Positions 20,162 to 43,318 of a stretch of DNA of 44,217 nt are shown here, one piece after another. Below the pieces are notes generated by a model that was not told the DNA's origin, searched no databases, and saw nothing but the letters and a program-made list of their open reading frames with translations. Origin of the DNA: a virus. The first letter of the stretch is position 1. Each line of letters begins with the position of its first letter. Where the stretch lies: the IMG/VR virus record IMGVR_UViG_3300032205_000001, positions 1 through 44,217 of that record; one strand, 5' to 3'. Both the position numbers and the translations under genes were made by a program.

Positions 20162-20665
20162 CTAGGTCTGCTTGATGGACACAGCCGGAGGAGCCGGCTC
20201 CCAGAACTTTAGGCAGTCTTTAAGCGGCAGATACTGCATGGCAATTCCGCGCTCCTTGGCTATCGCCTCGACGTCGACGCTGGTTCCACCGATGTACTCG
20301 GTGCCGTAGACCACCCGGCAGATGCCGACCTGCGCCACCCTCTTGAGGCAGTTGTAACAGGTGCTGGCCGTCGTGTAGAGCGTGCCTCCCAGGAGTGGAA
20401 CGCCGTGCTTTGCAGCTGTGACGATGGCGTTTTCTTCGGAGTGGATAGTACGGACGCAGCTCTGCCGGCCGTTGATCTCCATCATCTCGTGGCCAACCTC
20501 GTCGCAGCTTGGCCAGCCGCTGGGAGCACCACCGTAGCCAGTGGAGAGAATTCTCTTGTCGGCTGATACGACGATGGCGCCAATGCGAGCACGGTCGCAG
20601 GACATCCGCAGCGAAACGGCATCCGCAATGATCATGAAGTAGCTATCCCAGTCAGGTCTCGTCAT
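20162..20665 (-). CDS. dCMP deaminase (deoxycytidylate deaminase)
   Basis: Converts dCMP to dUMP, the substrate of thymidylate synthase. The zinc-dependent deaminase motifs are present: HSEENAI (75-81) with His and catalytic Glu, and TCYNC (102-106) with the two Cys ligands. STGYGGAPSGWPSC (41-54) matches the dCMP-specific loop. The third ligand context has Thr-Cys instead of the usual Pro-Cys, a mild oddity. Full length at 167 residues. Such genes raise dTTP supply during phage replication. Confidence 0.88.
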   Translation of the reverse strand: MTRPDWDSYFMIIADAVSLRMSCDRARIGAIVVSADKRILSTGYGGAPSGWPSCDEVGHEMMEINGRQSCVRTIHSEENAIVTAAKHGVPLLGGTLYTTASTCYNCLKRVAQVGICRVVYGTEYIGGTSVDVEAIAKERGIAMQYLPLKDCLKFWEPAPPAVSIKQT

Positions 20666-20906
20666 CGATGATGTCCTTGATCGTTACCGTGCCGTAGTAG
20701 TCGGTTCTCAGAACTGCCTCTGCATAGCGCGTAGTAAGACCAGGCCGGTTCTTGATAGCCTCGTCGATGGCTCGCTTCAACTCAGCGTCGTGGCAGTCGT
20801 AGCACTCCAGGACGCGACCTATGACCTTGTTCTCAGGATAGAGAACCTGATCGTAGATGACAAAATTAGGCCCTTTGCACTTCGGGCATTCCGTCGGGTC
20901 GGCCAT
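20652..20906 (-). CDS. Zinc-ribbon protein, 84 aa
   Basis: CPKC (7-10) and CYDC (35-38) with beta strands between them make a typical zinc ribbon. The C-terminus is helical then strand-rich. Overlaps the dCMP deaminase start by 14 nt, so it is translated just upstream of it. Confidence 0.7.
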   Translation of the reverse strand: MADPTECPKCKGPNFVIYDQVLYPENKVIGRVLECYDCHDAELKRAIDEAIKNRPGLTTRYAEAVLRTDYYGTVTIKDIIDDET

Positions 20907-21218
20907 TTAGTCTACGAAGGTAACACGGTCAGGCTGCTGATCGATCATTGTCAGCACGCGCATGATGATGCCTTCGCGTAGTCCCCGGTTTCCACAGTTG
21001 TGGTTGGAACCCCAGATGTCCTCGCCCAGCTCGACGCCAATGGTGATCTTGTAGACGTCGTGCTGTTCGGGCGGTGCTGTGTCCTTGCCGGTTCCGACTT
21101 GAGCATGGAGGTAGTCTTCAAGAAGGTCGATGACCTTCTCATGCTTGGCGTTGGTCTTGATCTGGACCTTGTCCGCCTTCATGTCGAATTCCATCTCGAT
21201 CACGATGTCTGGCTTCAC
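20907..21218 (-). CDS. Hypothetical protein, 103 aa, GTG start
   Basis: GTG at 21218 is in a GTGA overlap with the MazG-like gene. VKPDIVIEMEFDMKADKVQIKTN gives several strands, a helix follows (EKVIDLLEDYLHAQV), then strands again. No known domain. Confidence 0.7.
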   Translation of the reverse strand: MKPDIVIEMEFDMKADKVQIKTNAKHEKVIDLLEDYLHAQVGTGKDTAPPEQHDVYKITIGVELGEDIWGSNHNCGNRGLREGIIMRVLTMIDQQPDRVTFVD

Positions 21219-21547
21219 GGGATAGCGGTCGCCTTGTAGTTGTTCGAGTCGATGGCGATGTGGTGCAGGTACTGACCAATCCGCTCCCACTTGCGGTTCC
21301 TACCGAAATTGATCTCGGTTTGACTGATGACGCCAAGCTGGACCATCATTTCGGATACGGCGATGAGCTGGCCGATTTCCTTGGCGATCTCAACACGGTT
21401 CAGCTCTGCGTATTGGATCAGTGGATGCTTGGAGTCGATGCCGTGCCGCATCGCCTTCATGATGATTTGCACGATTTCCCCGGACTCCTCTGCGGCACAG
21501 CAAAGGATTTCGTGCTCGTGGGGAGCGAGTTTCGCGAATTGGGACAT
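21215..21547 (-). CDS. MazG-like nucleotide pyrophosphohydrolase, 110 aa
   Basis: AAEESGEIVQIIMKAMRHG (18-36) carries the EExxE half of the metal-binding motif of the all-alpha NTP-PPase superfamily, followed by EIAKEIGQLIAV (54-65). The second half normally reads ExxD (ELGDLLAV); here the Asp is Gln 60, so catalysis may be altered or lost. Family members hydrolyse NTPs or dNTPs to monophosphates. Confidence 0.7.
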   Translation of the reverse strand: MSQFAKLAPHEHEILCCAAEESGEIVQIIMKAMRHGIDSKHPLIQYAELNRVEIAKEIGQLIAVSEMMVQLGVISQTEINFGRNRKWERIGQYLHHIAIDSNNYKATAIP

Positions 21548-21827: not shown

Positions 21828-22433
21828 CTACTTCGCGTCTGCCTGAGGAATGCTCTGCTGTACGGCCGGGAACTCCTTCTGGTAGTCCTCGATCGTAAGG
21901 AACCGAGCAACTTTCTTCCCGAGCCGTCCCTTGTGGACGAACTGCGCCCACGTCTTCTTGCCGATGAACTCCTTCGGGTCGCCGATGCTCAGGTTCTCGA
22001 CGAGGTACGAGAGCATCTCGGCGGCTTCGGAAGAGGCCTCGGGGTCCTCGGTGGTGACGAAGACGTACGGGTTACCCTTCCACTGGCAGGTGCCTTCCAG
22101 CCTCGTCTTGGTTTCGCTGCCCTTGCCCTGTCTCACCGACGTGAACTCGACCATGACCCATCCGCCATCTTCGATGACGTCGGCGATGTTCTGCCGGCCT
22201 TTGGTGAAGTTCCACAACTCCTTCTCGGTCGGTGGAACGACCGCAGCAGGAGGAGCCTTGACCTCAACGAGCTTCGGAGCAGGCGTGTTCTCCTTGAGTC
22301 CGGTCAGTACAGCCTCGACATCAACTGCGTTGATCCGGTGAGCAGCCGAGTGGGCGTGTCGCTCAGGAATGCCGAAGCGCTCGAAGGTCTTGAACAATTC
22401 GATTCTCAGATCCGTCATCTCTTGCGTAGCCAT
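21828..22433 (-). CDS. Hypothetical protein, 201 aa
   Basis: ATG at 22433 with GGAGG about 8 nt upstream, a canonical leadered start. The N-terminal helical domain (ELFKTFERFGIPERHAHSAAHRI) is linked by an Ala/Pro-rich segment to a C-terminal domain that includes MVEFTSVRQGKGSETKTR. No family recognised. Confidence 0.7.
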   Translation of the reverse strand: MATQEMTDLRIELFKTFERFGIPERHAHSAAHRINAVDVEAVLTGLKENTPAPKLVEVKAPPAAVVPPTEKELWNFTKGRQNIADVIEDGGWVMVEFTSVRQGKGSETKTRLEGTCQWKGNPYVFVTTEDPEASSEAAEMLSYLVENLSIGDPKEFIGKKTWAQFVHKGRLGKKVARFLTIEDYQKEFPAVQQSIPQADAK

Positions 22434-22506: not shown

Positions 22507-22602
22507 TCAGCAAACATTCAACATGAAAGCGAAAAGGGCCATCGCAATCATCCATGCGATGGCCCAGCGGCGAGCAAACGACTTGTCGTGCTCGTGGAGC
22601 AT
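22507..22602 (-). CDS. 31-aa single-TM peptide next to protease gene
   Basis: The start (22602) is in a TGATG overlap with the protease stop. A charged N-terminus (MLHEHDKSFARRW) is followed by AIAWMIAMALFAFMLNVC, one hydrophobic helix to the C-terminus. Size and topology fit a phage micro-membrane protein, for example a pinholin- or toxin-like peptide. Only the overlap and hydrophobicity support it. Confidence 0.5.
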   Translation of the reverse strand: MLHEHDKSFARRWAIAWMIAMALFAFMLNVC

Positions 22603-23564
22603 CAGATCGGCGCGCTGACGACAGCCCAGAAGTCAGAGCACAGGTTCGTGTTCTGGACGTAGTCGTACGACATCCAAAAGTATCCCTGAAGACCCCAGCT
22701 GGGACCCCACGAGTTGCGAACCAGGAACATCTTCTTCGTGTCGTCATAGCCGACGAGCACCACGGCGTGGCCGCCTTCCTGCTGTTCGGTTGCCGTTGGG
22801 AGATGGAGAACTCCCTTCGTGGCCATGTCCTGGCTCATGAAGTAGCTGTAGACGGTGAAGCCGAACTCAATCAGGTAACCCTGCGCGAGCGTCGCCTTCA
22901 TCGTGGCCAGGTCACCGTCGGCGATCGAGTGGTAGCTCGTCACCTTGTGGCCGGCAGCAGCTGTCCAGATCGCTTGTGGCGGGTTCTGGGTGAACTTGCT
23001 GACGTCGTACGGGTATGCAGCCTCGTCGGCCACGCCGTACGTCACGCCGCATTTGATGGCGTCACGGATTGACGCGCCAGAGTCCTCGCCCGTGGTGCCT
23101 TCGATCTTGCGCGTGCCGTAGTACTCGAAGAGACGGCTGACCCGCTCCAATGTGGCCGGCTTCGGCGGAGTGGGCGTTGGCGTAGGAGTCGGGGTAGGAG
23201 CAGGAGCTGATGGCGTCACCGCTACATGAAAACCAACCACGCCGTTGACGTTGGTGATGCTCGAAACAGCGACAGCCGGAGCGCCGGTTGGCGAAACCAC
23301 CGCCTTTGCGTTACCGCCGAGTCTCTTGATCTCGTTGCTCTCAATGAGAGCAGAGAATGCGTTGGCCGTGCAGCTGCCAAGATCACCCTGGTCGACGATC
23401 GGACTGCAGATGTTTCGGTTGTCCCAGCTTGGTGGCGTTGCGGTGAACGCGCTGTGGAACTTGAGGCGGTAGGCCTCGTCCCGTGAGTCGTTCATCTGCT
23501 TCTTCCACCCCGCCATGTGGCGAACGTGGACTGATCCGTCGGCGTGGTGAGCGTTCTTGTGCAT
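22602..23564 (-). CDS. Papain-like (C1A) cysteine protease, 320 aa
   Basis: All C1 motifs are visible: the oxyanion Gln and catalytic Cys in DQGDLGSCTANAF (Cys 65), His 266 in GGHAVVLVGYD, and Asn 284 in VRNSWG. An insert with (TP)n repeats and VSRLFEYYG separates the halves. The mature N-terminus is preceded by RHMAGWKKQ. I placed the start at ATG 23564 (AAGGGG upstream); an in-frame GTG at 23594 would add 10 residues. No signal peptide, so it is probably cytoplasmic and may act on host or phage proteins. Confidence 0.88.
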   Translation of the reverse strand: MHKNAHHADGSVHVRHMAGWKKQMNDSRDEAYRLKFHSAFTATPPSWDNRNICSPIVDQGDLGSCTANAFSALIESNEIKRLGGNAKAVVSPTGAPAVAVSSITNVNGVVGFHVAVTPSAPAPTPTPTPTPTPPKPATLERVSRLFEYYGTRKIEGTTGEDSGASIRDAIKCGVTYGVADEAAYPYDVSKFTQNPPQAIWTAAAGHKVTSYHSIADGDLATMKATLAQGYLIEFGFTVYSYFMSQDMATKGVLHLPTATEQQEGGHAVVLVGYDDTKKMFLVRNSWGPSWGLQGYFWMSYDYVQNTNLCSDFWAVVSAPI

Positions 23565-34159: not shown

Positions 34160-34488
34160 TTCTAACCACCCTTCCTGTTTTGACAATCGTTACTGCTGGC
34201 GGGAAGGAATCACCTATGAAAGTGCTCTGTCAATAGTCTAAGCCTAAGACCTTCCAACGGTCGCCCGCGCAAGTATATGCGTGGATTCACGTACAAAGCA
34301 GGAATGATCATATAATGCCGAGGCATTTCCCATAGGTACCCTCGGTATTTGACGTTCACTTCAAGACTATCCTACATCGATCGATGAACCATGCTTTGTC
34401 CAGCTGTGGTTGAAGCAGGTTAGACTTCGGCGCCGTAAATACTTTCACATCTTGACAACCATCAACCACCTACGCGGACAAGGACTTA

Positions 34489-34506
34489 GAAAACTCACGA
34501 GTTTTC
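34489..34506. promoter_or_regulatory. Operator palindrome 1 (GAAAACTC-AC-GAGTTTTC)
   Basis: Perfect 8-bp arms with a 2-bp centre. First of five full copies in the window. Confidence 0.65.
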
Positions 34507-34630
34507 CGAACAGTAAGAGAAGAACTGGAGGCAGGAACTAGGAGGAGAGGGTATTCGTTCCAAGAATAGGGGAGGAGAAGGAGGAGTAGAATCAGGTCGA
34601 CTATCAAGCGCCCGTCCCTCTACGGGGCCT

Positions 34631-34638
34631 GAAAACTC
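34631..34638 (-). promoter_or_regulatory. Operator half site (GAAAACTC)
   Basis: One arm of the palindrome in reverse orientation, between palindromes 1 and 2. Confidence 0.45.
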
Positions 34639-34665
34639 TCGCAAATGATCGACGCAAGTGGATCG

Positions 34666-34683
34666 GAAAACTCATGAGTTTTC
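34666..34683. promoter_or_regulatory. Operator palindrome 2 (GAAAACTC-AT-GAGTTTTC)
   Basis: Identical to palindrome 3 at 35313, including the AT centre; the two flank the ribbon-helix-helix gene. Confidence 0.68.
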
Positions 34684-34785
34684 TCGGTTTGCGTTAGATC
34701 TGCCAAGATCCTGCTCAGGCCGCCCTTCTACGCAAGTGGATCTATGGCTGCCCTGTACATGATCGGATCAGATCAAGCCTGGGTA

Positions 34786-34794
34786 GAGTTTTCC
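34786..34794 (+). promoter_or_regulatory. Operator half site (GAGTTTTCC)
   Basis: 29 bp before the next half site and 46 bp before the regulator start codon. Confidence 0.5.
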
Positions 34795-34814
34795 GATTGG
34801 GGTATCCAATCCTG

Positions 34815-34823
34815 GAGTTTTCC
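34815..34823 (+). promoter_or_regulatory. Operator half site at the regulator promoter
   Basis: GAGTTTTCC directly abuts CATATACT, a likely -10 (TATACT, 34825-34830) for the regulator gene, so binding here should block that promoter. Confidence 0.55.
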
Positions 34824-34839
34824 ATATACTGTCTGCGTC

Positions 34840-35226
34840 ATGAGTTCTAAGCAGACGCGCAGATCTATTAGTGTTTCTCAGGATGTGTACGACAGGTTGA
34901 AGGCCTGGTGCGACGCCAATGGGCGCTCTCAGTCCGATGTTGTGGAGCAGGAGACTCGTAAGTTCCTAGGGATGGAACCACGCACGAAAGTTTCGGTCAG
35001 ACTTCCTCAAGTTTCGGCGAAAGTCCCCCGAGTTTCGGCGAAAGTGTCTACTGTTTCGGAGAGGTTGAAAGAAACTACGCCCGAGTCCACGTGGACGCCG
35101 GCCATCGAGCTTCCTGCTGGAGTTCGCAACTCCGGCTCACGAGTAGAGACCATCAAGGAGGTCGTGGAGTCCAAGAAGGTAGAGCCGCCGCCTGGGGACA
35201 AGGCTTCCAAGATCTTTACGTTCTAG
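34840..35226 (+). CDS. Ribbon-helix-helix DNA-binding regulator, 128 aa
   Basis: RRSISVSQDVYDRLKAW followed by GRSQSDVVEQETRKFL (about 7-43) is a clear Arc/CopG/MetJ-type ribbon-helix-helix, with a beta strand then two helices. The remaining 85 residues are Pro/Ser/Val/Lys-rich with a repeated VSxKVPxVSxKV pattern, probably extended. ATG 34840 was chosen because the fold starts there. Operator-like sites lie on both sides, implying autorepression. It is the best candidate master regulator of the rightward block. Confidence 0.8.
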   Translation: MSSKQTRRSISVSQDVYDRLKAWCDANGRSQSDVVEQETRKFLGMEPRTKVSVRLPQVSAKVPRVSAKVSTVSERLKETTPESTWTPAIELPAGVRNSGSRVETIKEVVESKKVEPPPGDKASKIFTF

Positions 35227-35233
35227 AGAACGT

Positions 35234-35253
35234 CGTCTACCGATCAGTAGACG
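35234..35253 (+). terminator. Hairpin after the regulator gene
   Basis: CGTCTAC and GTAGACG pair (7 bp) around CGATCA, 8 nt after the stop; followed by TTGTCTGTT, a weak U-tract. Confidence 0.5.
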
Positions 35254-35312
35254 TTGTCTGTTCGTGATCGGTCATCGTCTATTGGTTGGATGATCAAGGC
35301 GCCGAGGGTATG

Positions 35313-35330
35313 GAAAACTCATGAGTTTTC
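35313..35330. promoter_or_regulatory. Operator palindrome 3 (GAAAACTC-AT-GAGTTTTC)
   Basis: Perfect dyad in the gap between the regulator and the ATPase unit, about 135 bp before the next promoter's -35 element. Confidence 0.65.
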
Positions 35331-35464
35331 TACTTCCCACCCTGATCGCCGGCCCAGACCTTGACAGTTGCTAGTGCCGCCTGCTGGTACAGAACAGCGG
35401 GGATTGCGTTTGATCTCGGAGTATCTCTCCATACTCGCGTACCCTGGACAATGCACGAATCTCC

Positions 35465-35497
35465 GAAAATCCGTACGAGCTGAGCTGTAGTGCGGGA
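35465..35497 (+). promoter_or_regulatory. Promoter of the leader ORF/ATPase unit
   Basis: GAAA (35465-35468), 17 nt, TGTAG (35486-35490), exact consensus. There is no start codon 7 nt on; the predicted RNA begins ATACGGAGG and carries a 13 nt leader with a ribosome-binding site. Confidence 0.75.
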
Positions 35498-35510
35498 ATA
35501 CGGAGGATTG

Positions 35511-35579
35511 ATGGCACTGAACCTAAATCCAGTATCGGGGATGAAAATGTTCTGCTGCTCGCCGGTAGTGTCTCCATGA
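35511..35579 (+). CDS. 22-codon leader ORF before the ATPase
   Basis: ATG 35511 has GGAGG 4 nt upstream and the ORF (MALNLNPVSG...CCSPVVSP) ends in TGA overlapping the ATPase ATG (ATGA). The overlap and ribosome-binding site suggest a translational-coupling leader. The second promoter (35543-35575) lies inside it, so a leaderless ATPase mRNA would bypass it. Confidence 0.5.
   Translation: MALNLNPVSGMKMFCCSPVVSP
35543..35575 (+). promoter_or_regulatory. Leaderless-type promoter of the ATPase
   Basis: GAAA (35543-35546), 17 nt, GGTAG (35564-35568), 7 nt, ATG. One mismatch in the -10. Confidence 0.65.
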
Positions 35580-36865
35580 TGAAGCTGCCGCTCACCTTGG
35601 GGACCACGCCCGACGGCGATGAAGTTCAGCTGCCTATCGATGCACTGCGCCGCCACATGCTGGCGCTCGGTGCTTCGGGTAGCGGCAAGACCGTGCTCTG
35701 TAAGGTCGTCGTCGAGGAGTGCATCCGTAAGCGGCTGCCCGTGATTGCGGTCGACCCGCAGGGGGACCTAGCTTCGCTGGCACTCTCGGAGGACCCGGCC
35801 GTGCTGGTCAAGATGGGAGTCGACGAGCGCACGGCCCACGAATTCCGTGAGCGTGTGGACGTGAAAATCTGGACCCCGGGCGCAACCATCGGCATCCCGG
35901 TTTCGTTCACGCCCAACATGACCGTTCCCGACGGAGTGAGGCCGGAGGACAGGCTCCGGGCATTCGGCGCTGTGGCGCAAGCCCTTGCGTCGATGGTGGG
36001 TGCGCAAAACGAGACCACGGCGACGGCTTTCTCCATGGTTTTGGAGTACGCCGACAACAACGGACTGGCCTGCGAAAATATCCAGGATTTCATCAACTTC
36101 CTGGCTGACCCGCCGGCACCGCTCGCGCGCTCGATGGATGTCGTGTTCGATTCCAAGGCCCGGAGCAAGGCCCACAAAGCCTTTCTCATCAAGACCTTGG
36201 GCGCGAATCGCCTGCTCTTTGACTTGGGCGCTCCCATCGATATCGATGAGATGTTCGGCCTGTACACGGGCGGACCGTCGGACACTGGGAAAGCGCGGCT
36301 GTCAATCATCTACCTGAACACCCTCACTTCACAGGAGGACAAGGAAATTTTCGTGTCTCTGCTTTGTAGTGCCCTGTACCAGTGGATGCTGACGCTTGAT
36401 GGTTCGCAGCTCTGGGGGATGCTCTACATGGATGAGGTCGCACCCTACCTGCCGCCGGTCAAGAATCCCGCTTCCAAGCAAGCGCTAATGATGCTGATTC
36501 GCCAGGCCCGGAAGTACGGCTTGTGCTGTCTGCTCGCAACGCAGAGCCCAGGGGACATCGATTACAAGGCGATGGGGCAGGTGGGCACGATGGCCATCGG
36601 CCGCATCATGGGCGAGCGTGCTCTCGGCAAGGTCGAGCCGCTCATTCGTGCGCAGCCGGGGACGGATACGGATGCCATCATTCAAGGGCTGCCGGGCATG
36701 TCCAAGGGTCGATTCGTGCTCGTGAATCCCGACGTGTACGAGCATCCGACGGAGGCGCAAGTGCGTTGGCTGGTGAGCAAGCATGTCAACGTGACGGCGG
36801 ACGGAGTCGCCGACCTAGTTACAGACGAGGACCGTGAAAATCTCGGTCGTGGCGGTTGTAGTTAG
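35576..36865 (+). CDS. HerA/FtsK-superfamily ATPase (DUF853/HerA-like), 429 aa
   Basis: Walker A GASGSGKT at 32-39 directly after LPIDALRRHMLAL. Walker B-like LYMDEVAPYLPP near 282-293, and the Q-containing sensor segment LLATQSPGDIDYKAMGQ follows. This order matches HerA-type DNA-translocating ATPases, where an N-terminal HAS barrel may be shortened here. The C-terminal half has GRIMGERALGKVEPLI. It could pump or unwind DNA in replication, repair or transfer; in phages of this kind a packaging role cannot be excluded. Confidence 0.85.
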   Translation: MMKLPLTLGTTPDGDEVQLPIDALRRHMLALGASGSGKTVLCKVVVEECIRKRLPVIAVDPQGDLASLALSEDPAVLVKMGVDERTAHEFRERVDVKIWTPGATIGIPVSFTPNMTVPDGVRPEDRLRAFGAVAQALASMVGAQNETTATAFSMVLEYADNNGLACENIQDFINFLADPPAPLARSMDVVFDSKARSKAHKAFLIKTLGANRLLFDLGAPIDIDEMFGLYTGGPSDTGKARLSIIYLNTLTSQEDKEIFVSLLCSALYQWMLTLDGSQLWGMLYMDEVAPYLPPVKNPASKQALMMLIRQARKYGLCCLLATQSPGDIDYKAMGQVGTMAIGRIMGERALGKVEPLIRAQPGTDTDAIIQGLPGMSKGRFVLVNPDVYEHPTEAQVRWLVSKHVNVTADGVADLVTDEDRENLGRGGCS

Positions 36866-36868
36866 GTC
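36836..36868 (+). promoter_or_regulatory. Leaderless-type promoter at the ATPase 3' end
   Basis: GAAA (36836-36839), 17 nt, TGTAG (36857-36861), exact. The base 7 nt on begins ATT, not ATG. Confidence 0.72.
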
Positions 36869-36967
36869 ATTGGAAGCGCAGGCCAGCTGTACCGCGTCGT
36901 GGACGCCATAGGCTCCGGCTGGTTTGCGTTTCCGCTTTGCGCAGAGAGTTTTCCAAATCCTCTGTGA
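36869..36967 (+). other. Possible ATT-started ORF (32 aa) or small RNA
   Basis: From the predicted +1 (36869) an in-frame ATT opens 32 codons to TGA 36965-36967, ending at the -35 of the next promoter. The product would begin (I/M)GSAGQLYRVVDAIG. ATT initiation is rare, so a short non-coding RNA is equally likely. An operator half site lies near its 3' end. Confidence 0.35.
36946..36954 (+). promoter_or_regulatory. Operator half site (GAGTTTTCC)
   Basis: Lies 11 bp upstream of the -35 element of the promoter at 36966. Confidence 0.5.
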
Positions 36968-36998
36968 AAAAGAAGACTGGCTCAGGAGTAGTAGCACC
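36966..36998 (+). promoter_or_regulatory. Leaderless-type promoter of 36999-37424
   Basis: GAAA (36966-36969), 17 nt, AGTAG (36987-36991), 7 nt, ATG. One -10 mismatch. Confidence 0.75.
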
Positions 36999-37424
36999 AT
37001 GTTCCTTGACGAAGACAACAGCAAGAAGCGCAAGAGCAACATGTTCTTCTCGTGCGGCCCGAGCGAAGAGGACCGCCGAATTGTCCCGTCGAAGTTCTAT
37101 CGAACCGACGATATGGACTGCACCTACTTCAAGCTGACGGCGCCGGTTCATGTTCGTCTCAAGGACATCAACGGAGTCGAGCGGCTGACAGCGGTGAGCG
37201 GCCCGGTCGTCTTCATCGCCAAGGGTGACGATTTCTGGGGCGGCGAGAACGCCAAGGACTATCGCTCGAAGGTTATCGAGCACCCTACCTACAGGGCGCT
37301 GCTGGGAGCCGCTCAGGCTTCTCAGAAGTTCACGCGCGACTACCACCACTCGTTCATCGAGGGCGTGACGTTCAAGGGTTACGAGGGCACCACCATGATC
37401 CTCCAGTTGCAGTTCGGGTCGTAG
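36999..37424 (+). CDS. Hypothetical protein, 141 aa
   Basis: The ATG at 36999 is fixed by the promoter spacing; the longer frame from 36924 is rejected. FLDEDNSKKRKSNMFFSCG starts a compact mixed domain. RLTAVSGPVVFIAKGDDFWGG and TFKGYEGTTMILQLQFGS are strand-rich. GC-rich codon choice suggests good expression. No family recognised. Confidence 0.72.
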   Translation: MFLDEDNSKKRKSNMFFSCGPSEEDRRIVPSKFYRTDDMDCTYFKLTAPVHVRLKDINGVERLTAVSGPVVFIAKGDDFWGGENAKDYRSKVIEHPTYRALLGAAQASQKFTRDYHHSFIEGVTFKGYEGTTMILQLQFGS

Positions 37425-37437
37425 ACCCCTGCGCCTG

Positions 37438-37446
37438 GAGTTTTCC
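37438..37446 (+). promoter_or_regulatory. Operator half site (GAGTTTTCC)
   Basis: 14 bp after the stop of 36999-37424 and 17 bp upstream of the weak promoter at 37464. Confidence 0.5.
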
Positions 37447-37463
37447 ATCTGAAAGGAGCGCTT

Positions 37464-37496
37464 GGTAATTTAGGCCTGCTGGATTGTAGCTATCTC
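37464..37496 (+). promoter_or_regulatory. Degenerate promoter of 37510-37686
   Basis: TGTAG (37485-37489) is intact but the -35 reads GGTA. The predicted +1 (37497) gives a leader AAAGGAATCAATC with an AAAGGA ribosome-binding site, so this one would be leadered. Confidence 0.45.
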
Positions 37497-37509
37497 AAAG
37501 GAATCAATC

Positions 37510-37686
37510 ATGACCGACAAGCAGAAGTTAGAACTGGCGTTACAGAACAACAAGAACCTGGAGAAGCGGGTCATTGATCTAGAAGAGCAGATGGCACTGG
37601 TGCTGCGGGCTCTTCGAGTTGTGACAGAGAAGAAGGCACAAGAGAAAGACCCGAGCTTCAAGGTTCACGAAACAAACGAGGCCTGA
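37510..37686 (+). CDS. Small coiled-coil protein, 58 aa
   Basis: ATG 37510 with AAAGGA upstream. TDKQKLELALQNNKNLEKRV then IDLEEQMALVLRALRVVTEKK makes a clear parallel coiled coil, probably dimeric. The downstream promoter's -35 lies in its last codons. Confidence 0.7.
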   Translation: MTDKQKLELALQNNKNLEKRVIDLEEQMALVLRALRVVTEKKAQEKDPSFKVHETNEA

Positions 37687-37701
37687 GGTTGTAGTGCTGC
37701 C
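37669..37701 (+). promoter_or_regulatory. Leaderless-type promoter of 37702-38103
   Basis: GAAA (37669-37672), 17 nt, TGTAG (37690-37694), 7 nt, ATG. Exact; overlaps the upstream coding end. Confidence 0.87.
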
Positions 37702-38103
37702 ATGAACTACAAGTGGAAGAAGCTGTTCAAGGCGAAGGGTGGCCACAAGTATTTCCGTGATGAGATCACGGGGATGATTGCGGTCGCCGACGATTCGGGC
37801 TCCACGCCAGACCAGACCGAAGACGGCGTGCTGTGGCTGGACTACAAGCGGTGCGTGTGCATCGCGACCGACAAGAACGGCAGAACCTGGATCACAATTC
37901 CAGTTCTCAAGGAGAGCCGCTACGGTGGTCCGGTTACTCAGAGCTGCACGCCGGCATCAGCTCACGAAGCTGTCGAGGTGTGTGCCCGTTTCAACATGCG
38001 GCTGGTGCTCGACGGTGACAGGTTCGTGCTAGTACGCGAGAAGGTGGCCGATCAGGGCGGTGACGATCACGGCGCTGATCAGCAAGACAGCGTACAGGCC
38101 TAG
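37702..38103 (+). CDS. Hypothetical protein, 133 aa
   Basis: Leaderless start. Basic N-terminus (NYKWKKLFKAKGGHKYF), a central beta domain (GVLWLDYKRCVCIATDKNG), then a helix and an Asp/Gln-rich acidic tail. No family recognised. Confidence 0.72.
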   Translation: MNYKWKKLFKAKGGHKYFRDEITGMIAVADDSGSTPDQTEDGVLWLDYKRCVCIATDKNGRTWITIPVLKESRYGGPVTQSCTPASAHEAVEVCARFNMRLVLDGDRFVLVREKVADQGGDDHGADQQDSVQA

Positions 38104-38125
38104 GCTGCTGTTTCGCTTATCCTTG

Positions 38126-38149
38126 GGCATTCTGTGTACAATGCCCTTG
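38126..38149 (+). other. Hairpin GGGCATT...AATGCCC
   Basis: A 7-bp stem (GGGCATT/AATGCCC) with an 8 nt loop shortly after the stop at 38103. No U-run; may be a processing or weak termination signal. The approximate position is by eye. Confidence 0.4.
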
Positions 38150-38209
38150 AGTAGCTCGCGCCGATGCACGCCTCCTTATCGGTGATGCAGCACGTAATGT
38201 CCACTGTGT

Positions 38210-38242
38210 GAAAAAACAGCCAATCACAGGTGTAGTACAACC
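38210..38242 (+). promoter_or_regulatory. Leaderless-type promoter of 38243-38551
   Basis: TGTGAAAAAAC with GAAA at 38210-38213, 17 nt, TGTAG (38231-38235), 7 nt, ATG. Exact. Confidence 0.88.
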
Positions 38243-38551
38243 ATGATTCTCTTCCTCTGCTACGTGTTCCCGCCGCTTGCGGTGTTGCTCATGGGGAGGC
38301 CATTCAGTGCCGTACTGAATTTCTTTCTCACGTGCTTCATGTGGTTCCCGGGTATCGGCCACGCGCTCGTGTGCTACGCCGACTACAAGGGCGACAAGAT
38401 GACCAACAAGGTTGTGAGAGCCGTCAATCGTCCCACGTGGACGCAAGCTGCACCGGCTCCAGTTCGTCAGCGCAGGCAGAGAGTCGAGGCGGTGTACATC
38501 GATGACCCGGGCGTTGGCATGAACGGTACGCAGTTCCGTCGTAAGGCTTAG
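38243..38551 (+). CDS. Pmp3/YqaE-like (UPF0057) membrane protein, 102 aa
   Basis: FPPLAVLLMGRPFSAVLNFF and TCFMWFPGIGHALVCY match the Pmp3/YqaE family: two TM helices (about 1-17 and 22-46) with the signature PLAVLL...G...N..LT...PG..HA. A basic tail of about 55 residues follows, longer than in the roughly 50-residue bacterial members. Family members modulate membrane potential and stress tolerance; in a phage it may protect the infected cell's membrane or block superinfection. Confidence 0.8.
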   Translation: MILFLCYVFPPLAVLLMGRPFSAVLNFFLTCFMWFPGIGHALVCYADYKGDKMTNKVVRAVNRPTWTQAAPAPVRQRRQRVEAVYIDDPGVGMNGTQFRRKA

Positions 38552-38605
38552 TCGGCTGGAAGGGCCGCATCAACTTCACGTTTGGAGTACTACAAGCGTG
38601 ATGCA

Positions 38606-38625
38606 CTCATTGTGCGCACAATGAG
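38606..38625. repeat. Perfect 20-bp palindrome CTCATTGTGCGCACAATGAG
   Basis: Both halves are exact complements with no spacer, more typical of a protein-binding site than of an RNA hairpin. Confidence 0.55.
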
Positions 38626-38661
38626 AAACGGTGCTGCCCTTCGAGTCGACCAGGGGGAAAG

Positions 38662-38679
38662 GAAAACTCAGGAGTTTTC
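38662..38679. promoter_or_regulatory. Operator palindrome 4 (GAAAACTC-AG-GAGTTTTC)
   Basis: Perfect arms; inside the structured non-coding stretch. Confidence 0.62.
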
Positions 38680-38812
38680 TGTTCCACGCAAGGGCTTGCG
38701 TTGGTGGCAGGTTCGACTCCTGCCGGAGTACGTGCTACCGCCGCAGCCTGTACAGCGGTGTAGCGCAGTGCGTCAGACGAATTGCGGACGCTATGAAGAC
38801 TACAATTGAAAC

Positions 38813-38830
38813 GCCCTGATTTTTCAGGGC
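38813..38830. terminator. Convergent hairpin terminator GCCCTGA/TCAGGGC
   Basis: 7-bp GC-rich stem with a TTTT loop between the end of the structured stretch and the leftward gene 38858-39052; no long U-run on either side. Confidence 0.55.
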
Positions 38831-38833
38831 AAA

Positions 38834-38842
38834 GAGTTTTCC
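38834..38842 (+). promoter_or_regulatory. Operator half site (GAGTTTTCC)
   Basis: Four bp after the terminator hairpin. Confidence 0.48.
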
Positions 38843-38857
38843 ATCCCCGCCCCGCCG

Positions 38858-39052
38858 TCAGACCTTCTTGCCATAGTTGATGCGAAACCACGTGCCACCG
38901 TGCATCTCGGCATCGCTACGGGCTACGAAGCACTGGAAACCGGCACGCTTTAAGTCCGCCGGCATGGTGCGTAACCCGTATCGTTCGGCTTGCTTACGCG
39001 TCATCGGCTTGTCGAGCGTGGTCAATCCGACCTTGACGGGGAGCTTCTCCAT
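38858..39052 (-). CDS. Small leftward gene in the rightward block, 64 aa
   Basis: Leaderless ATG at 39052, exactly 7 nt after TGTAG. EKLPVKVGLTTLDKPMTRKQAERYGLR then a mixed C-terminus with FVARSDAEMHGG. It diverges from the DUF932 gene with overlapping control regions. Function unknown. Confidence 0.7.
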   Translation of the reverse strand: MEKLPVKVGLTTLDKPMTRKQAERYGLRTMPADLKRAGFQCFVARSDAEMHGGTWFRINYGKKV

Positions 39053-39085
39053 GCCCGGACTACAACCGGGGCAGGACGATTTTTC
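39053..39085 (-). promoter_or_regulatory. Leaderless-type promoter of 38858-39052
   Basis: GAAA (39085-39082), 17 nt, TGTAG (39064-39060), 7 nt, ATG. Exact. It diverges from the promoter at 39097. Confidence 0.87.
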
Positions 39086-39096
39086 TGAAGTTCGGT

Positions 39097-39129
39097 GAAA
39101 AAGAATCTCCGGCGATTTGTAGTTCGGGC
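39097..39129 (+). promoter_or_regulatory. Leaderless-type promoter of the DUF932 gene
   Basis: GAAA (39097-39100), 17 nt, TGTAG (39118-39122), 7 nt, ATG. Exact. Back to back with the leftward promoter; the -35 elements are 11 bp apart. Confidence 0.88.
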
Positions 39130-40584
39130 ATGACGACGAACCTCAACATCAAGGATGCGAACATGGATGACGCTTCGGCCCGCTTCTCTCTCATCGAGAT
39201 GGACAACACCCCGACGTTCGTGGCGAAGCCGGACCCGACTCCGGTTCCCGCCCCGACCCCCGACATCACGGGTCAGGAAATGTACGGCTCGCCCGGTGTC
39301 AGCGCCGAGGGCAAGGCTCGTGCGCTCGCCGACCAGGCTGCCGCCGAGGCCAGCGGCTGGAACCTCGCGCCCCCGGTCTACGAGATCGGCCGTGTGGTCA
39401 ACAGCATGGGCGTTGGCAACTACCGCGCTTCCCGCACGGAGCACGACGACATGCCGAGCACCACCGAGGGGCTCAACAAGCTGATCGACGTGGTCAAGAG
39501 CGAGAACCGCAGGGATCTCGTGTGCGCGGTCCCGTCCCTCAAGATGCTGCCCGATGGTCGCATCACCCGTGGCCAGGCCGTGCTCCCCATCTCGGAGCGT
39601 GCGATCTCCGGTGTCGGCACCCACATCACGCCCGGTGGTGCTGGCTACCTGAAGCAGTGCCCGCCCGAGCTGCGCGCGGTCAACTTCAACCACTGGGCGG
39701 CGAACGGCTTCCGTGAGGACGTCCGCGCCACCGTGGCTGCCAAGGAGGAGTGGGTCAACAATGGTTCCAAGGGGCAGGAGCCTGGCCCGGTCATGAAGGA
39801 GAAGGAGGTCACCGTCCGCACGCGCCTCAACCACGCCACGAATGGCCGTGAGGCATGGAGCATCGTCGGACCCCGCTACGGTGCGCACGACGTCGACAAG
39901 ATCGCCGAGCAGATCTTGACGTCCCCGAGCATCCCGGGCGATGCCAAGTGCGACATCGTGTACGACGGCTACCGTGCCCGGATCGACGTGCTGTTCCACA
40001 GCAACGTTCAGCCGGAGAAGGTGGTTGCCGGCGAGATCTTCAAGGCTGGCATCATGGTCAAGACTGCCGACGACGGCAGCGGCTCGATCCAGATCTCGGC
40101 TCAGGTCTGGCGCAACCTCTGCCTCAACCTCATCATCATCGATCACGCGAAGGATCTCGTGACCCGCCGCAAGCACTACGGCACGGGGATCCAGGCCGAT
40201 GTCGAGGCCGGCATCGTCACGGCGATGGGGAAGATCAAGCATTTCGCCGACAAGTGGTCCGAGGCGACCCTGGAGAACGTGCTGGAGAAGTACGGTGTTG
40301 CCGACGTCGACGCCGTGTTCCGTGGCCTGGTCTACAACAAGGTGGTCCACGTCCCGGGCATCAAGCCGGAGGAGATGATGGAGCGGCTTCAGCGCGCCTA
40401 CCAGGCCGAGCCTGGCTACGGCAAGGATGCCATCGTCAACGCGGTGACTCGTGCGGCTCATACGGAAACGTGGGGCTCGTGGACCGATGTCGAGGACATG
40501 GAGCGGACGGGCGGCGCCCTGCTGTTTCAGCCGGTCTGGAACCTCACCGTCCCGGCGGAAGAGCTGCCCGAACTGGGCTACTAG
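39130..40584 (+). CDS. DUF932-type phage/plasmid protein, 484 aa
   Basis: Largest gene of the window. The core AGEIFKAGIMVKTADDGSGS followed by AQVWRNLCLNLIIIDHAKD (about 295-345) matches the DUF932 (YubP/YfjQ-like) pattern of phage and plasmid proteins. The N-terminal 80 residues are Pro/Ala-rich and flexible. Codons are strongly biased to C and G in the third position compared with neighbours, suggesting high expression. Members are linked to single-strand DNA metabolism and mobile elements, without a settled activity. No Shine-Dalgarno sequence; leaderless. Confidence 0.72.
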   Translation: MTTNLNIKDANMDDASARFSLIEMDNTPTFVAKPDPTPVPAPTPDITGQEMYGSPGVSAEGKARALADQAAAEASGWNLAPPVYEIGRVVNSMGVGNYRASRTEHDDMPSTTEGLNKLIDVVKSENRRDLVCAVPSLKMLPDGRITRGQAVLPISERAISGVGTHITPGGAGYLKQCPPELRAVNFNHWAANGFREDVRATVAAKEEWVNNGSKGQEPGPVMKEKEVTVRTRLNHATNGREAWSIVGPRYGAHDVDKIAEQILTSPSIPGDAKCDIVYDGYRARIDVLFHSNVQPEKVVAGEIFKAGIMVKTADDGSGSIQISAQVWRNLCLNLIIIDHAKDLVTRRKHYGTGIQADVEAGIVTAMGKIKHFADKWSEATLENVLEKYGVADVDAVFRGLVYNKVVHVPGIKPEEMMERLQRAYQAEPGYGKDAIVNAVTRAAHTETWGSWTDVEDMERTGGALLFQPVWNLTVPAEELPELGY

Positions 40585-40594
40585 TCAGCGGCTC

Positions 40595-40618
40595 GCCGAT
40601 TCCGTGAAAACGGTCGGC
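40595..40618 (+). terminator. GAAA-tetraloop hairpin after DUF932 gene
   Basis: GCCGA/TCGGC and CCGT/ACGG stems (with a TT bulge) closed by a GAAA loop, 11 nt after the stop. The loop GAAA is also the -35 of the next promoter. Confidence 0.55.
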
Positions 40619-40638
40619 GCCTCGGTTGTAGTAACCCT
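40606..40638 (+). promoter_or_regulatory. Promoter without a start codon (small-RNA type)
   Basis: GAAA (40606-40609), 17 nt, TGTAG (40627-40631), exact. No start codon 7-8 nt on; +1 would be near 40639. Confidence 0.75.
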
Positions 40639-40701
40639 GAGGGGAGACCCTCGGGGTTGTTCTCTTGGCCAAGAGAGTTTTCCTGGCCATGAGAATCCTC
40701 T
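40639..40701 (+). ncRNA. Candidate small RNA with 5' hairpin
   Basis: The predicted transcript starts with GAGGG-GAGA-CCCTC, a 5'-terminal hairpin, followed by the perfect palindrome TCTCTTGGCCAAGAGA (40661-40676) and an operator half site. It reaches the next promoter after about 60 nt. No ORF of note. It may be a regulatory RNA or a leader of the next gene. Confidence 0.4.
40675..40683 (+). promoter_or_regulatory. Operator half site (GAGTTTTCC)
   Basis: 18 bp upstream of the -35 of the promoter at 40702. Confidence 0.5.
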
Positions 40702-40734
40702 GAAAAACGAAGCGACAACGGTTGTAGTGGAACC
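40702..40734 (+). promoter_or_regulatory. Leaderless-type promoter of 40735-41091
   Basis: GAAA (40702-40705), 17 nt, TGTAG (40723-40727), 7 nt, ATG. Exact. Confidence 0.88.
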
Positions 40735-41091
40735 ATGGCTGACTGGAAGCAAGATCGCCCCGTCATCAAGCGAGAGCACGTGATGATGGTGTACACCGGC
40801 AAGCAAGGCTGCATGTGTGGCTGCAACGGCAAGTACAAGTACCGCAAGGATGCGGTTGCCGCTGGCAAGACCAATCGCGGCTACGATGTGAAGCCGGATG
40901 AGGTCAACGAAGGCGTGGTCACTCGTGTTCTGAACGAACTCGCTACGCTCGACAATGTCGAGGTGGGTGAGATCTACAGCCGCGAGAAGGGCGACTCCCT
41001 GTTCTACCTCTGGGACAATCCCGAGACCGGCCGTCGTGTCGCTGTGTACACGCTGCCAGGCGCTCCGTACGTCAAGCCGGAGGGTGTGTAA
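40735..41091 (+). CDS. Conserved protein with YTGKQGCMCGC motif, 118 aa
   Basis: VMMVYTGKQGCMCGCNGKY at about 16-34 is a conserved Cys-rich block I recall from many phage and bacterial ORFs (YSGKxGCxCGCRGKY), followed by RGYDVKPDEVNEGVV and a beta-rich end. Probably metal-binding; function unknown. Stop overlaps the next start (TAATG). Confidence 0.78.
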   Translation: MADWKQDRPVIKREHVMMVYTGKQGCMCGCNGKYKYRKDAVAAGKTNRGYDVKPDEVNEGVVTRVLNELATLDNVEVGEIYSREKGDSLFYLWDNPETGRRVAVYTLPGAPYVKPEGV

Positions 41092-41768
41092 TGGGGATGT
41101 TCAGCTGGAACTGTCTCGCATGTGGTTTCTCGCTGCGAGAGTGCAAGAATTGCTCGGTCGACAGCTGGATGGCCCAAGGCGTGGCGCTCTCGCCGAACGG
41201 CACCCGAGTGATCGGCTGGTACAACAGCTACGGCCAGCTGGGGGACACGTACAATCTCGCCGACCAGATGGGCGATTTCAGCGTGTACCACAAGGCCTGC
41301 TGGGAACTTGTCGGCAAGCCCGAATTCACCAAGCAAGCTTCGCACGCGCACGATCAGGGATTCTGCCTGCCAACGCACGGCAACCCGCTCCCCCTCCCCA
41401 CGCATCAGTGGCTGGAGAAGTGCCCGATGGCTCATGCGATCGATCGTGTGTGCCATGCGTACTCTCGATGGGCTGCTGATCGTCGTTACAACGAAGGCGA
41501 GGCTCAGTTCCTGACGCTCAGCGCAGATGATCAGAGGCTCTGCCTTGCTGCGTACAAGGCCGACGAAGACGCTCGCAACGCTGCCCACCGTGCGGCGATG
41601 GATGCGTACTACAACTCAGACGACGACAACGCTCGCGCGCCAGAGCGCCCGGAGAAGCCGGAGCTGTTCCTCTTCAACGGTGTGAACTACTACGGCTCGG
41701 TGCTGTGGGTTCGCAATCGATGGCTCGAAGACGACGAACTTCGAAAAAACAGGAAGTCCCGGTTGTAG
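41091..41768 (+). CDS. Conserved hypothetical protein starting MGMFSW, 225 aa
   Basis: GMFSWNCLACGFSLRECKNC places four Cys at the N-terminus (zinc ribbon). GWYNSYGQLGDTYN and FSVYHKACWELVGKPEFTK are conserved blocks of a family I know from bacteria and phages without function. The C-terminus is Ala/Asp-rich, then aromatic. Translated by TAATG coupling to the gene before. Its last codons carry the promoter of the next gene. Confidence 0.78.
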   Translation: MGMFSWNCLACGFSLRECKNCSVDSWMAQGVALSPNGTRVIGWYNSYGQLGDTYNLADQMGDFSVYHKACWELVGKPEFTKQASHAHDQGFCLPTHGNPLPLPTHQWLEKCPMAHAIDRVCHAYSRWAADRRYNEGEAQFLTLSADDQRLCLAAYKADEDARNAAHRAAMDAYYNSDDDNARAPERPEKPELFLFNGVNYYGSVLWVRNRWLEDDELRKNRKSRL

Positions 41769-41775
41769 TCGAAGC
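41743..41775 (+). promoter_or_regulatory. Leaderless-type promoter of 41776-42063
   Basis: GAAA (41743-41746), 17 nt, TGTAG (41764-41768), 7 nt, ATG. Exact; the TAG of TGTAG is the stop codon of the upstream gene. Confidence 0.88.
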
Positions 41776-42063
41776 ATGCCTAGAGACGCCAAGCCCTACT
41801 GGATCAGGGGAAGAACCAGCGACGGTGGAGCAGCACGGTACATCGAGCACTGGCTGCTCGCCGAGCACGACAGCGAAGAAACCGGCAAGTGGGAGATGTT
41901 CTGCGTCGACTACAAGCCGGACATCCATCACGAAGGTGGAAAATGGCTGGAGTTCTACTGGGAGGGAGACTTCCAGGAGACCATCCCGTACGTGCCCGTG
42001 ACGAACGCGAAGTTTCAGCTCATGCAGTTCATCGAGTTCTGGATGGATGAAAATCGCGGCTGA
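41776..42063 (+). CDS. Hypothetical aromatic protein, 95 aa
   Basis: Leaderless start. Rich in Trp, Tyr and Glu (YIEHWLLAEHDSEETGKWEMF, one block cut short here). Beta-rich with an acidic character and a C-terminal helix (LMQFIEFWMDE). No family recognised. Confidence 0.72.
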   Translation: MPRDAKPYWIRGRTSDGGAARYIEHWLLAEHDSEETGKWEMFCVDYKPDIHHEGGKWLEFYWEGDFQETIPYVPVTNAKFQLMQFIEFWMDENRG

Positions 42064-42081
42064 TTCAGGTGTAGTGCTCGC
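42049..42081 (+). promoter_or_regulatory. Leaderless-type promoter of 42082-42330
   Basis: GAAA (42049-42052), 17 nt, TGTAG (42070-42074), 7 nt, ATG. Exact; starts within the previous gene. Confidence 0.88.
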
Positions 42082-42330
42082 ATGAGCGAAACCAAAAACG
42101 TGCTCGATGTCGAGTACAAGATCTTCGATGCACGGACCGATGCCCTGCTGATCATTCGCGAGAGCCCGGAATGTCCCGGCATCACCGAGTTGGTGATGCA
42201 AGAGAAAGAGGACCGCGCCTCGCACAAGTACGGCACGCACATCACCGTCGATGATGACGATTTGCCGCTCCTCATCGAGGCTCTTCAGCGTCGATGCCAG
42301 GACGTGCAGAGGAATCCCAAAGAGCCATGA
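42082..42330 (+). CDS. Hypothetical acidic protein, 82 aa
   Basis: VLDVEYKIFDARTDALLII forms strands, then a helix at the end (DLPLLIEALQRRCQDVQ). Ends in ATGA with the next gene. Small alpha/beta protein of unknown role. Confidence 0.7.
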   Translation: MSETKNVLDVEYKIFDARTDALLIIRESPECPGITELVMQEKEDRASHKYGTHITVDDDDLPLLIEALQRRCQDVQRNPKEP

Positions 42331-42584
42331 CCGAATCCGTTTTCGTTGTTCAGTACACGCACAAGCACGGCGATGGCGTGAACATCTACAGCACGATCAA
42401 GAAGGCGGAGAGCGCCGCTGCCAACCTCATGGACGATCGGATCGCCGAATCATGGGACGACAGCGATCGAGCTGCCTACGATAGGTGCAAGACGTTCGAG
42501 GCGAAGCTGAAGTATTTTCACACGGTCGAGCGAGACGTGAGCTATGGCGAACGGATCAACGTGTTCGAGTGCGTCGTGGAGTAG
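42327..42584 (+). CDS. Hypothetical protein, 85 aa
   Basis: ATG 42327 overlaps the previous stop (ATGA), chosen over an earlier in-frame ATG. SVFVVQYTHKHGDGVNIYST is a strand-rich start, followed by an Ala/Asp-rich helix and a C-terminal strand. Last gene before the convergent hairpin. Confidence 0.7.
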   Translation: MTESVFVVQYTHKHGDGVNIYSTIKKAESAAANLMDDRIAESWDDSDRAAYDRCKTFEAKLKYFHTVERDVSYGERINVFECVVE

Positions 42585-42617
42585 CAGGCCGGCGGTCCCC
42601 ACCGCCTACCAGCAACA

Positions 42618-42635
42618 GAAAACTCTAGAGTTTTC
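42618..42635. promoter_or_regulatory. Operator palindrome 5 (GAAAACTC-TA-GAGTTTTC)
   Basis: Perfect dyad 33 bp after the last rightward gene and just before the terminator hairpin, consistent with a transcription roadblock. Confidence 0.62.
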
Positions 42636-42655
42636 CAGTTTGTACAACGAATGTG

Positions 42656-42685
42656 CGGCTAAGATAAAACCCTTTACCTTAGCCG
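42656..42685. terminator. 13-bp hairpin between convergent genes
   Basis: CGGCTAAGATAAA pairs with TTTACCTTAGCCG around a 4 nt loop, with one mismatch/wobble position. No U-run, but a strong hairpin between 42584 (+) and 42710 (-). The adjacent text resembles a tRNA D-arm by coincidence. Confidence 0.6.
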
Positions 42686-42709
42686 ACTGAGCCACCCGTG
42701 CTGCCGGAT

Positions 42710-43174
42710 CTAGAACTCCTCGGCAGCCTCGGTGGTGACGGTCACGCCATGCTCTGCGAGCACTGCTAGTGCTTCCTTGACCTCGGCAGGCTGCTCGGTC
42801 TTGGTTTCGGCCTTCGACGGCTTGTGCTTCTTCGGAGCCGGAGACTCCACTTCATCGGCCAGCTTCTTCAGCTTGTTGAGGCCGGCGAGCGTGATGCGAT
42901 ACTTGCCGTCACCGATGTCCTCGGAGTGCGTGGCCCAGTTCGAGCGCACGAGGCGGCGCAAGGTGTTACGAACCTTGCTGTTTCCACGGGCCTTGCCCAT
43001 GCGCCCGAGGTGCCATCCGAGACCTTCCATGATCTCCTTGATGGTGAAGACCGGGCGGCCTTCGACGCCGAGGAACGTGACGAGCTGCTGCTCGTTCTCG
43101 CTTAGCTCCTCGAACGTGAGACGGAGCGGCGAAGCTTGCTGACCTTGATTCGACTTGAGGGTTTGGGTGCTCAT
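42710..43174 (-). CDS. Winged-helix-like protein, 154 aa
   Basis: LTFEELSENEQQLVTFL, FTIKEIMEGLGW and GNSKVRNTLRRLVRSNW (64-80) form a winged-helix-type layout with a recognition-helix candidate. A Lys/Glu/Pro tail follows. The GNSKVRNxLRRLxR block is shared with the gene at 43890, so the two are paralogous. ATG 43174 is fixed by the promoter; the longer frame is rejected. Possibly a replication or transcription regulator bound to the CACAG-rich region nearby. Confidence 0.72.
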   Translation of the reverse strand: MSTQTLKSNQGQQASPLRLTFEELSENEQQLVTFLGVEGRPVFTIKEIMEGLGWHLGRMGKARGNSKVRNTLRRLVRSNWATHSEDIGDGKYRITLAGLNKLKKLADEVESPAPKKHKPSKAETKTEQPAEVKEALAVLAEHGVTVTTEAAEEF

Positions 43175-43207
43175 GTCCTTACTACACCCTGGAGCAAACC
43201 TTTTTTC
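43175..43207 (-). promoter_or_regulatory. Leaderless-type promoter of 42710-43174
   Basis: GAAA (43207-43204), 17 nt, TGTAG (43186-43182), 7 nt, ATG. Exact. Confidence 0.88.
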
Positions 43208-43284
43208 ATCACTGATCATCGTAATCAAACCACTTTTTTGTAAACGCAAGTGATTACCTGATCTTAGTTCTTCTCGACAATCAC

Positions 43285-43318
43285 GAAAAAACAGAGGATT
43301 TGGCTTGTAGTGCAGGGT
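43285..43318 (+). promoter_or_regulatory. Leaderless-type promoter of 43319-43654
   Basis: GAAA (43285-43288), 17 nt, TGTAG (43306-43310), then 8 nt and ATG. Exact elements; one extra base before the start. Confidence 0.82.

Follow-up and report, generated by a model that had tools for sequence, protein, structure and literature searches.

An exact inverted-repeat word at gene ends in one block of a T4-superfamily phage genome and its relatives

We analysed a short inverted repeat in a 44,217-nucleotide stretch of virus DNA (the window), which is the first 44 kb of the 175,284-bp IMG/VR virus record IMGVR_UViG_3300032205_000001 (G000). The site is an inverted pair of an exact 8-mer, GAAAACTC-NN-GAGTTTTC as a full dyad, and its halves also occur alone. 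Exact copies are present in three distinct phages, are confined to one block of each genome, stand at the 3′ ends of genes and are retained at the 3′ ends of orthologous genes. They are biased in orientation when single and fall into discrete spacer classes when paired. The explanation that we favour, with evenly balanced confidence, is that a phage-encoded dimer uses the sites as stoperator-like roadblocks where transcription units end, with operator clusters at the block edges.

Exact copies are confined to one block of the genome

The G000 record contains 44 copies of GAAAACTC/GAGTTTTC. All lie between 34.4 and 56.7 kb except the 44th, at 170,999, which is inside a called gene. An earlier reading of the window from its sequence only had placed the sites between 34.4 and 42.7 kb and had proposed a check for enrichment in the complete genome. 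The record-wide count (43 of 44 half sites in one block) bears out the confinement but not its right limit, which was that of the window; the block extends ~12 kb past the window end. The whole record holds 12 exact dyads; there is also one pair whose spacer is 3 nt, and several whose spacers are wide. In comparison with dinucleotide shuffles, the window has five dyads where 0.15 are expected (shuffle maximum 1) and 17 half sites where 1.6 are expected (shuffle maximum 5).

G000 encodes a Gp20-type portal (7e-72) and a Gp23-type major capsid protein (1e-71) and is therefore a T4-superfamily phage; identity of its capsid protein to those of the best-ranked phage records does not exceed 36.5%. 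A pattern scan identified three further records with many site copies: G003, which is near-identical, and the diverged G001 (199.6 kb) and G002 (197.3 kb), whose HerA-like ATPases are 49% and 74% identical, respectively, to the G000 protein. A DNA search of the block against phage records gave no near match, and a HerA protein search in phage records gave no match. A relative with a 38% identical HerA protein (L044) carries neither such sites nor any other dominant repeat. The scan also returned loci L013-L016, L018, L021, L023-L029, L031 and L032, each with one dyad and without the promoter type described below, and we treated these as chance occurrences.

Confinement recurs in the relatives, with 48 of 49 copies at 53.2-77.5 kb in G001 and 101 of 101 at 20.7-65.1 kb in G002 (binomial p from 1e-37 to 1e-66 across the three phages). 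The 8-mer ranks first or second for over-representation among the 8-mers of each block. GC content (~0.51-0.61) and promoter sequence differ among the three phages; the site word is unchanged. Across 192 block copies GAGTTTTC is invariant and the following base is almost always C or T, while the sequence flanking the sites is hardly conserved. Copies with one mismatch show no excess (0.33-0.36 per kb in the block vs 0.22-0.34 outside), no G000 dyad contains a mismatch and no compensatory change occurs in the dyad arms. The word is all-or-none.

The five exact dyads and seven lone halves that the sequence-only reading had listed in the window were all recovered at their positions:

34489..34506: full dyad, GAAAACTC-AC-GAGTTTTC; left-edge cluster upstream of the ribbon-helix-helix (RHH) gene, a cluster conserved in G001 and G002
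34631..34638, − strand: lone half site (GAAAACTC on the + strand); left-edge cluster
34666..34683: full dyad, spacer AT; left-edge cluster
34786..34793, + strand: lone half site GAGTTTTCC, upstream of the RHH gene
34815..34822, + strand: lone half site GAGTTTTCC, between the −35 region and TATACT of the RHH gene
35313..35330: full dyad between the RHH and HerA-like genes; counterparts at G001 55146 and G002 23448
36946..36953, + strand: lone half site closing a short non-coding unit, with the next leaderless promoter downstream
37438..37445, + strand: lone half site, 14 nt past the stop of 36999-37424
38662..38679: full dyad, spacer AG, at a convergent junction
38834..38841, + strand: lone half site at the convergent junction that holds dyad 38662..38679
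40675..40682, + strand: lone half site closing a short non-coding unit, at a tandem junction
42618..42635: full dyad, spacer TA, at the convergent junction of 42327-42584 (+) and 42710-43174 (−)

Sites stand at the 3′ ends of transcription units

Units in the block are short, mostly of a single gene, and have leaderless promoters. In G000 the promoters have the form GAAAA-N15-[GT]TGTAGT-N6-ATG, with 26 of the 27 record copies at 36.8-55.5 kb; G001 block promoters read TGAAATTC...GGTGTTTA. An example from the window is:

40702..40728, + strand: promoter GAAAA-N15-GTTGTAGT, six nt before ATG (leaderless)

This promoter class, seen at 36836-43311 and on to 55.5 kb (L005), is very regular and often forms back-to-back divergent pairs. 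The block also encodes two sigma factors of the ECF type (record positions 50346-50867, +, and 55586-56122, −), which could serve its leaderless promoters.

Junctions were counted with our own, crude gene calls, so that some exceptions are probably miscalls. A site is present at 26 of 27 convergent junctions, 59 of 69 tandem junctions and 3 of 31 divergent junctions. When only gaps of 60-150 nt are compared, which matches the classes for length, the counts are 49/54 for convergent and tandem gaps vs 0/25 for divergent gaps (p=6e-16). None of 16 convergent junctions outside the block has one. Dyad 42618 comes after the last gene of a rightward run, as had been noted.

These counts bear on the possibility that the sites are promoter-proximal operators or activator sites for the downstream gene. 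The sequence-only reading had taken them mainly as promoter operators, and its local observations hold: lone halves 36946 and 40675 lie ~12-19 bp upstream of GAAAA −35 elements, lone half 37438 lies ~6 bp upstream of a TGAAAG −35-like element, and lone half 34815 abuts TATACT and thus lies inside a promoter. Most tandem lone halves end just upstream of the −35, ~45-75 nt short of the following start codon. Promoter control nonetheless fails to account for the occupied convergent junctions, where no gene starts, or for divergent promoter pairs of the same type, which have no sites, and tandem dyads stand at no fixed distance from the start (60-100 nt). Since the majority of sites mark 3′ ends in convergent or tandem arrangement and hardly any occupy divergent promoter regions, the general operator reading lacks support in its original form, and we consider promoter control quite unlikely.

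The 3′-end site is kept at orthologous genes (16/26 in G002, 7/11 in G001), in some cases with inverted orientation and new neighbours. Examples that kept the site 3′ despite such changes are 48468-49034, 49153-49362 and 50346-50867. Sites 5′ of genes are mostly absent at the orthologous genes in the other phages. Since block genes are reordered or inverted among relatives while 3′ sites stay attached, and since the phage belongs to the T4 superfamily, the word might be a recombination boundary for gene-cassette shuffling, like the PeSLs of T4-like phages. Homology-based shuffling, however, needs neither sense-biased lone halves nor phased spacing (see below), the flanks are hardly conserved and the edge clusters are not cassette joints. 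We therefore regard a cassette boundary as very unlikely.

A GC-rich hairpin usually lies between the stop codon and the site, at a hairpin-to-site distance of 0-70 nt. Because this hairpin precedes the site at so variable a distance, the site is not the U tract of a terminator. Nor does the dyad have the form of an intrinsic terminator, being AT-rich with the U run inside the stem and with GC hairpins upstream. A generic terminator scan gave no excess over shuffled sequence.

Several further observations concern the sequence around the sites. Promoters without an open reading frame occur at 36866-36953 and 40640-40682; the predicted product of each is an RNA of 45-90 nt that contains strong hairpins and ends at a lone half. 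tRNA-like T-arms (e.g., GGCAGGTTCGACTCCTGCC) lie beside or around dyads at 38630-38731, at L005 1577-1687 and 2480-2551, and at G002 48566-48649. Several site-adjoining units have T-arm-like ends, though ARAGORN predicted no tRNA in the block (window or L005), and an Rfam search gave chance-level matches only. A second palindrome, GCAARCGYTTGC, is present in G000, G001 and G002 (8, 6 and 11 copies) and often adjoins dyads at gene ends, for example at 44687, 50881 and 55556.

Half sites are paired at phased spacings and, when alone, mostly oriented with transcription

The spacers of inverted pairs are 2 bp (19 pairs), 3 bp (28), 10-12 bp (3), 16-22 bp (16) or 28-34 bp (11), with no inverted pair at 4-9, 13-15 or 23-27 bp. 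The 26 non-redundant wide spacers are significantly periodic (p=0.0004 for periods 6-14), with 9.5 bp as the best-fitting period and 10.5 nearly equal. At orthologous ends a 2-bp spacer may be swapped for one of 3, 19 or 20 bp, and 2-bp pairs in G001 and G002 occur almost only around the RHH gene. The phased spacer classes are more suggestive of a dimer on DNA than of an RNA hairpin.

Lone halves in tandem units are oriented along transcription in 18 cases and against it in 5 (p=0.011). Without three doubtful sites the bias is 18 vs 2, but 18 vs 5 is the figure to use because that exclusion was made after the data were seen. Lone halves are also commoner at tandem (17/59) than at convergent ends (2/26, p=0.046).

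An RNA-level 3′-end signal, in which the transcript GAGUUUUC(C) or a dyad hairpin acts as a terminator, a processing site or an RNA-protein site, would share the 3′-end placement and the sense bias of lone halves, and a dyad with a 3-nt loop folds at -6.4 kcal/mol. On the other hand, the one lone site tested gave no fold, and the spacer classes are those expected from DNA phasing, not from loops. The edge clusters stand where no gene ends, the distance to the hairpin is not constant and the stronger, GC-rich hairpins are usually in front of the site. The sequence-only reading had likewise preferred a protein-binding DNA site to an A/U-rich hairpin, and the sequence features suggest that it was right: dyad arms are exact without compensatory change, lone halves cannot fold and spacers appear phased. 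We judge an RNA signal to be unlikely.

The word could instead be a structural or partition element that marks out a domain of the genome for a protein like MatP or ParG and is intergenic only to avoid genes. Its confinement to one region recalls matS, the RHH domain is common to MatP and ParG, and the clusters beside the RHH gene look centromere-like. Such an element predicts neither one site per 3′ end, nor the absence from length-matched divergent gaps, nor the sense orientation of lone halves. There is also no ParA-type ATPase (no PF13614 match in five records), and the neighbour of the RHH gene is HerA-like. ParG-like ACTC boxes were considered and set aside, no ParA-type ATPase having been found. 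We think a partition role improbable. RNA signalling, domain organisation, promoter control and cassette recombination are thus each less consistent with at least one measured feature.

Two candidate binding proteins are encoded near the sites

34840-35226, + strand: probable RHH protein, 128 amino acids, candidate binder 1; syntenic in G001 and G002
35576..36865, + strand: HerA/DUF87-type ATPase, a conserved neighbour, 74% and 49% identical in the relatives
42710-43174, − strand: winged-helix protein, 154 amino acids, candidate binder 2

The RHH candidate matches Pfam RHH_5 at 4.5e-5, under the curated cut-off, and its PHROG match is an Arc-like repressor. Its structural model has helices at residues 14-27 and 31-43, and the top structural matches are Arc, MatP and CopG, all weak (E ~0.9 or worse); a PDB sequence search gave no match. 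Identity of the RHH domain to that of G000 is 52% over 44 amino acids in G002 and 42% over 24 amino acids in G001, the latter with a non-significant E-value. Sites lie upstream of the RHH gene in all three phages.

The winged-helix protein is better conserved than the RHH protein, with 58% (G002) and 50% (G001) identity over ~110 amino acids. Its recognition helix is largely invariant, and S-[KR]-VRN-T-[LV]-RRLV is strongly conserved. The model has good local confidence, and the nearest structures include MarR/ArsR-like folds, none at E 0.001. MarR/ArsR-like winged-helix dimers commonly read palindromes of such size. From sequence and models, the RHH and winged-helix proteins appear about equally likely to be the binder. 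An invariant word fits the slower-evolving winged-helix protein at least as well as the RHH protein.

A proposed roadblock at transcription-unit ends

In the roadblock explanation, a dimeric, sequence-specific DNA-binding protein encoded by the phage would recognise the 8-mer as its half site, and nearly all transcription units in the block would have one binding site at their 3′ boundary. The bound protein would act as a roadblock behind the intrinsic terminator and keep polymerase out of the next unit. A dyad would work both ways and be used at convergent ends, while a lone half along transcription would suffice as a one-way block at some tandem ends. Sites are also clustered at the two block edges, which are the starting points of long outward operons and the location of the candidate regulator gene, and there they probably act as operators. 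We infer protein binding, the elongation block, the identity of the binder and every step from binding onward.

Several observations weigh against this explanation. The wholly absent imperfect copies are unusual, since regulator operators normally vary, and the RHH candidate has evolved far more quickly than the site. Autoregulation is plain in G000 only, since the cluster of G001 and that of G002 stand 200-280 bp upstream of the RHH start. The orientation bias of lone halves is significant but not absolute, and 10 of 69 tandem units lack a site, although part of these may be gene-call errors. Finally, no integrase was found in G000, an incomplete record, so lysogenic repression cannot be assumed. 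Tyrosine recombinase genes are present in G002 (21832-22371, directly adjoining the RHH gene) and G001 (41008-41523), a hint that phages of this T4-superfamily group may be temperate.

More tentatively, and with rather more doubt than belief, the word may be a dedicated punctuation code, used by a family of large T4-superfamily phages, in which one conserved phage protein marks nearly all unit ends of a 22-44 kb block of single-gene units. A half would signify one-way and a pair two-way insulation, and the word would have long been frozen while other genes, including the candidate regulator, diverged. If true, palindromic all-or-none stoperators in unrelated large phages would suggest that roadblock insulation arose more than once, and the sites would offer a compact set of one-way and two-way insulators. 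The near-total gene-end rule is a simple transcription-unit marker in unannotated phage genomes of this group.

Other features of the record

At the left edge of the block (34160-34840; G001 52720-53774; G002 20440-21330), the three phages share AAATACTTTCA and CGCAARYG motifs, and two of them also have purine-rich AAGAATAGGGG repeats. The left edge appears origin-like in its sequence. In an origin analysis, the strand skew there tracks gene direction. The leftward gene block encodes a papain-like cysteine protease (22602-23564, 4.9e-19) and a DUF5131 protein (4257-5297, 1.1e-78). Forty-seven tRNA genes covering most amino acids are predicted at 108-129 kb of the G000 record (L008-L009).

Comparison with known systems

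The stoperators of cluster A mycobacteriophages (L5, Bxb1, TipsytheTRex) are asymmetric 13-mers that occur genome-wide and are bound by a monomer with helix-turn-helix (HTH) and Stoperator domains (PMC9283540, PMC6550527). As far as the papers show, within the open-licence literature searched, stoperators are described almost only from actinobacteriophages. The protein that binds L5-type stoperators is the immunity repressor, which halts elongation. The present sites resemble them in that many copies of one repressor-type site lie in short intergenic gaps, the lone halves tending to point along transcription, with operators in promoter regions too and a candidate regulator gene with sites of its own. 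They differ in being exact 8-mers, mostly in inverted pairs, in one block of a T4-superfamily phage in which no HTH-Stoperator repressor was identified. The likeness to L5 drawn by the sequence-only reading therefore holds for placement (49/54 length-matched convergent and tandem gaps) and may hold for orientation (lone halves 18 vs 5; symmetric dyads cannot be oriented), but not for site form, which is asymmetric, ~13 bp and monomer-bound in L5 and a palindromic 8-mer pair here. Because the asymmetric site and the known repressor are absent, we do not file the system as a member of the L5 stoperators.

PeSLs are promoter-terminator cassettes of T4-like phages (PMC4503421). They and the present sites have in common that intergenic elements with a stem-loop and a promoter nearby are repeated where small genes of a T4-superfamily phage have been reshuffled. 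The repeat described here differs in that it is an exact DNA word distinct from the stem-loop, lies downstream of it and occurs also at promoterless convergent ends. The 13-bp MatP target matS has 23 copies over an 800-kb chromosome domain (PMC3330122) and is likewise a short repeated site limited to one genome region, with an RHH domain in MatP; we know of no gene-end rule for matS. Protein roadblocks to RNA polymerase include Reb1, Rap1 and LacI, and the effect of Rap1 is orientation-dependent (PMC10310618). The mechanism proposed here, in which a bound protein would delimit transcription units, is like theirs, but those systems are yeast or engineered bacterial ones, whereas the sites described here are phage-encoded and set at each unit of a block.

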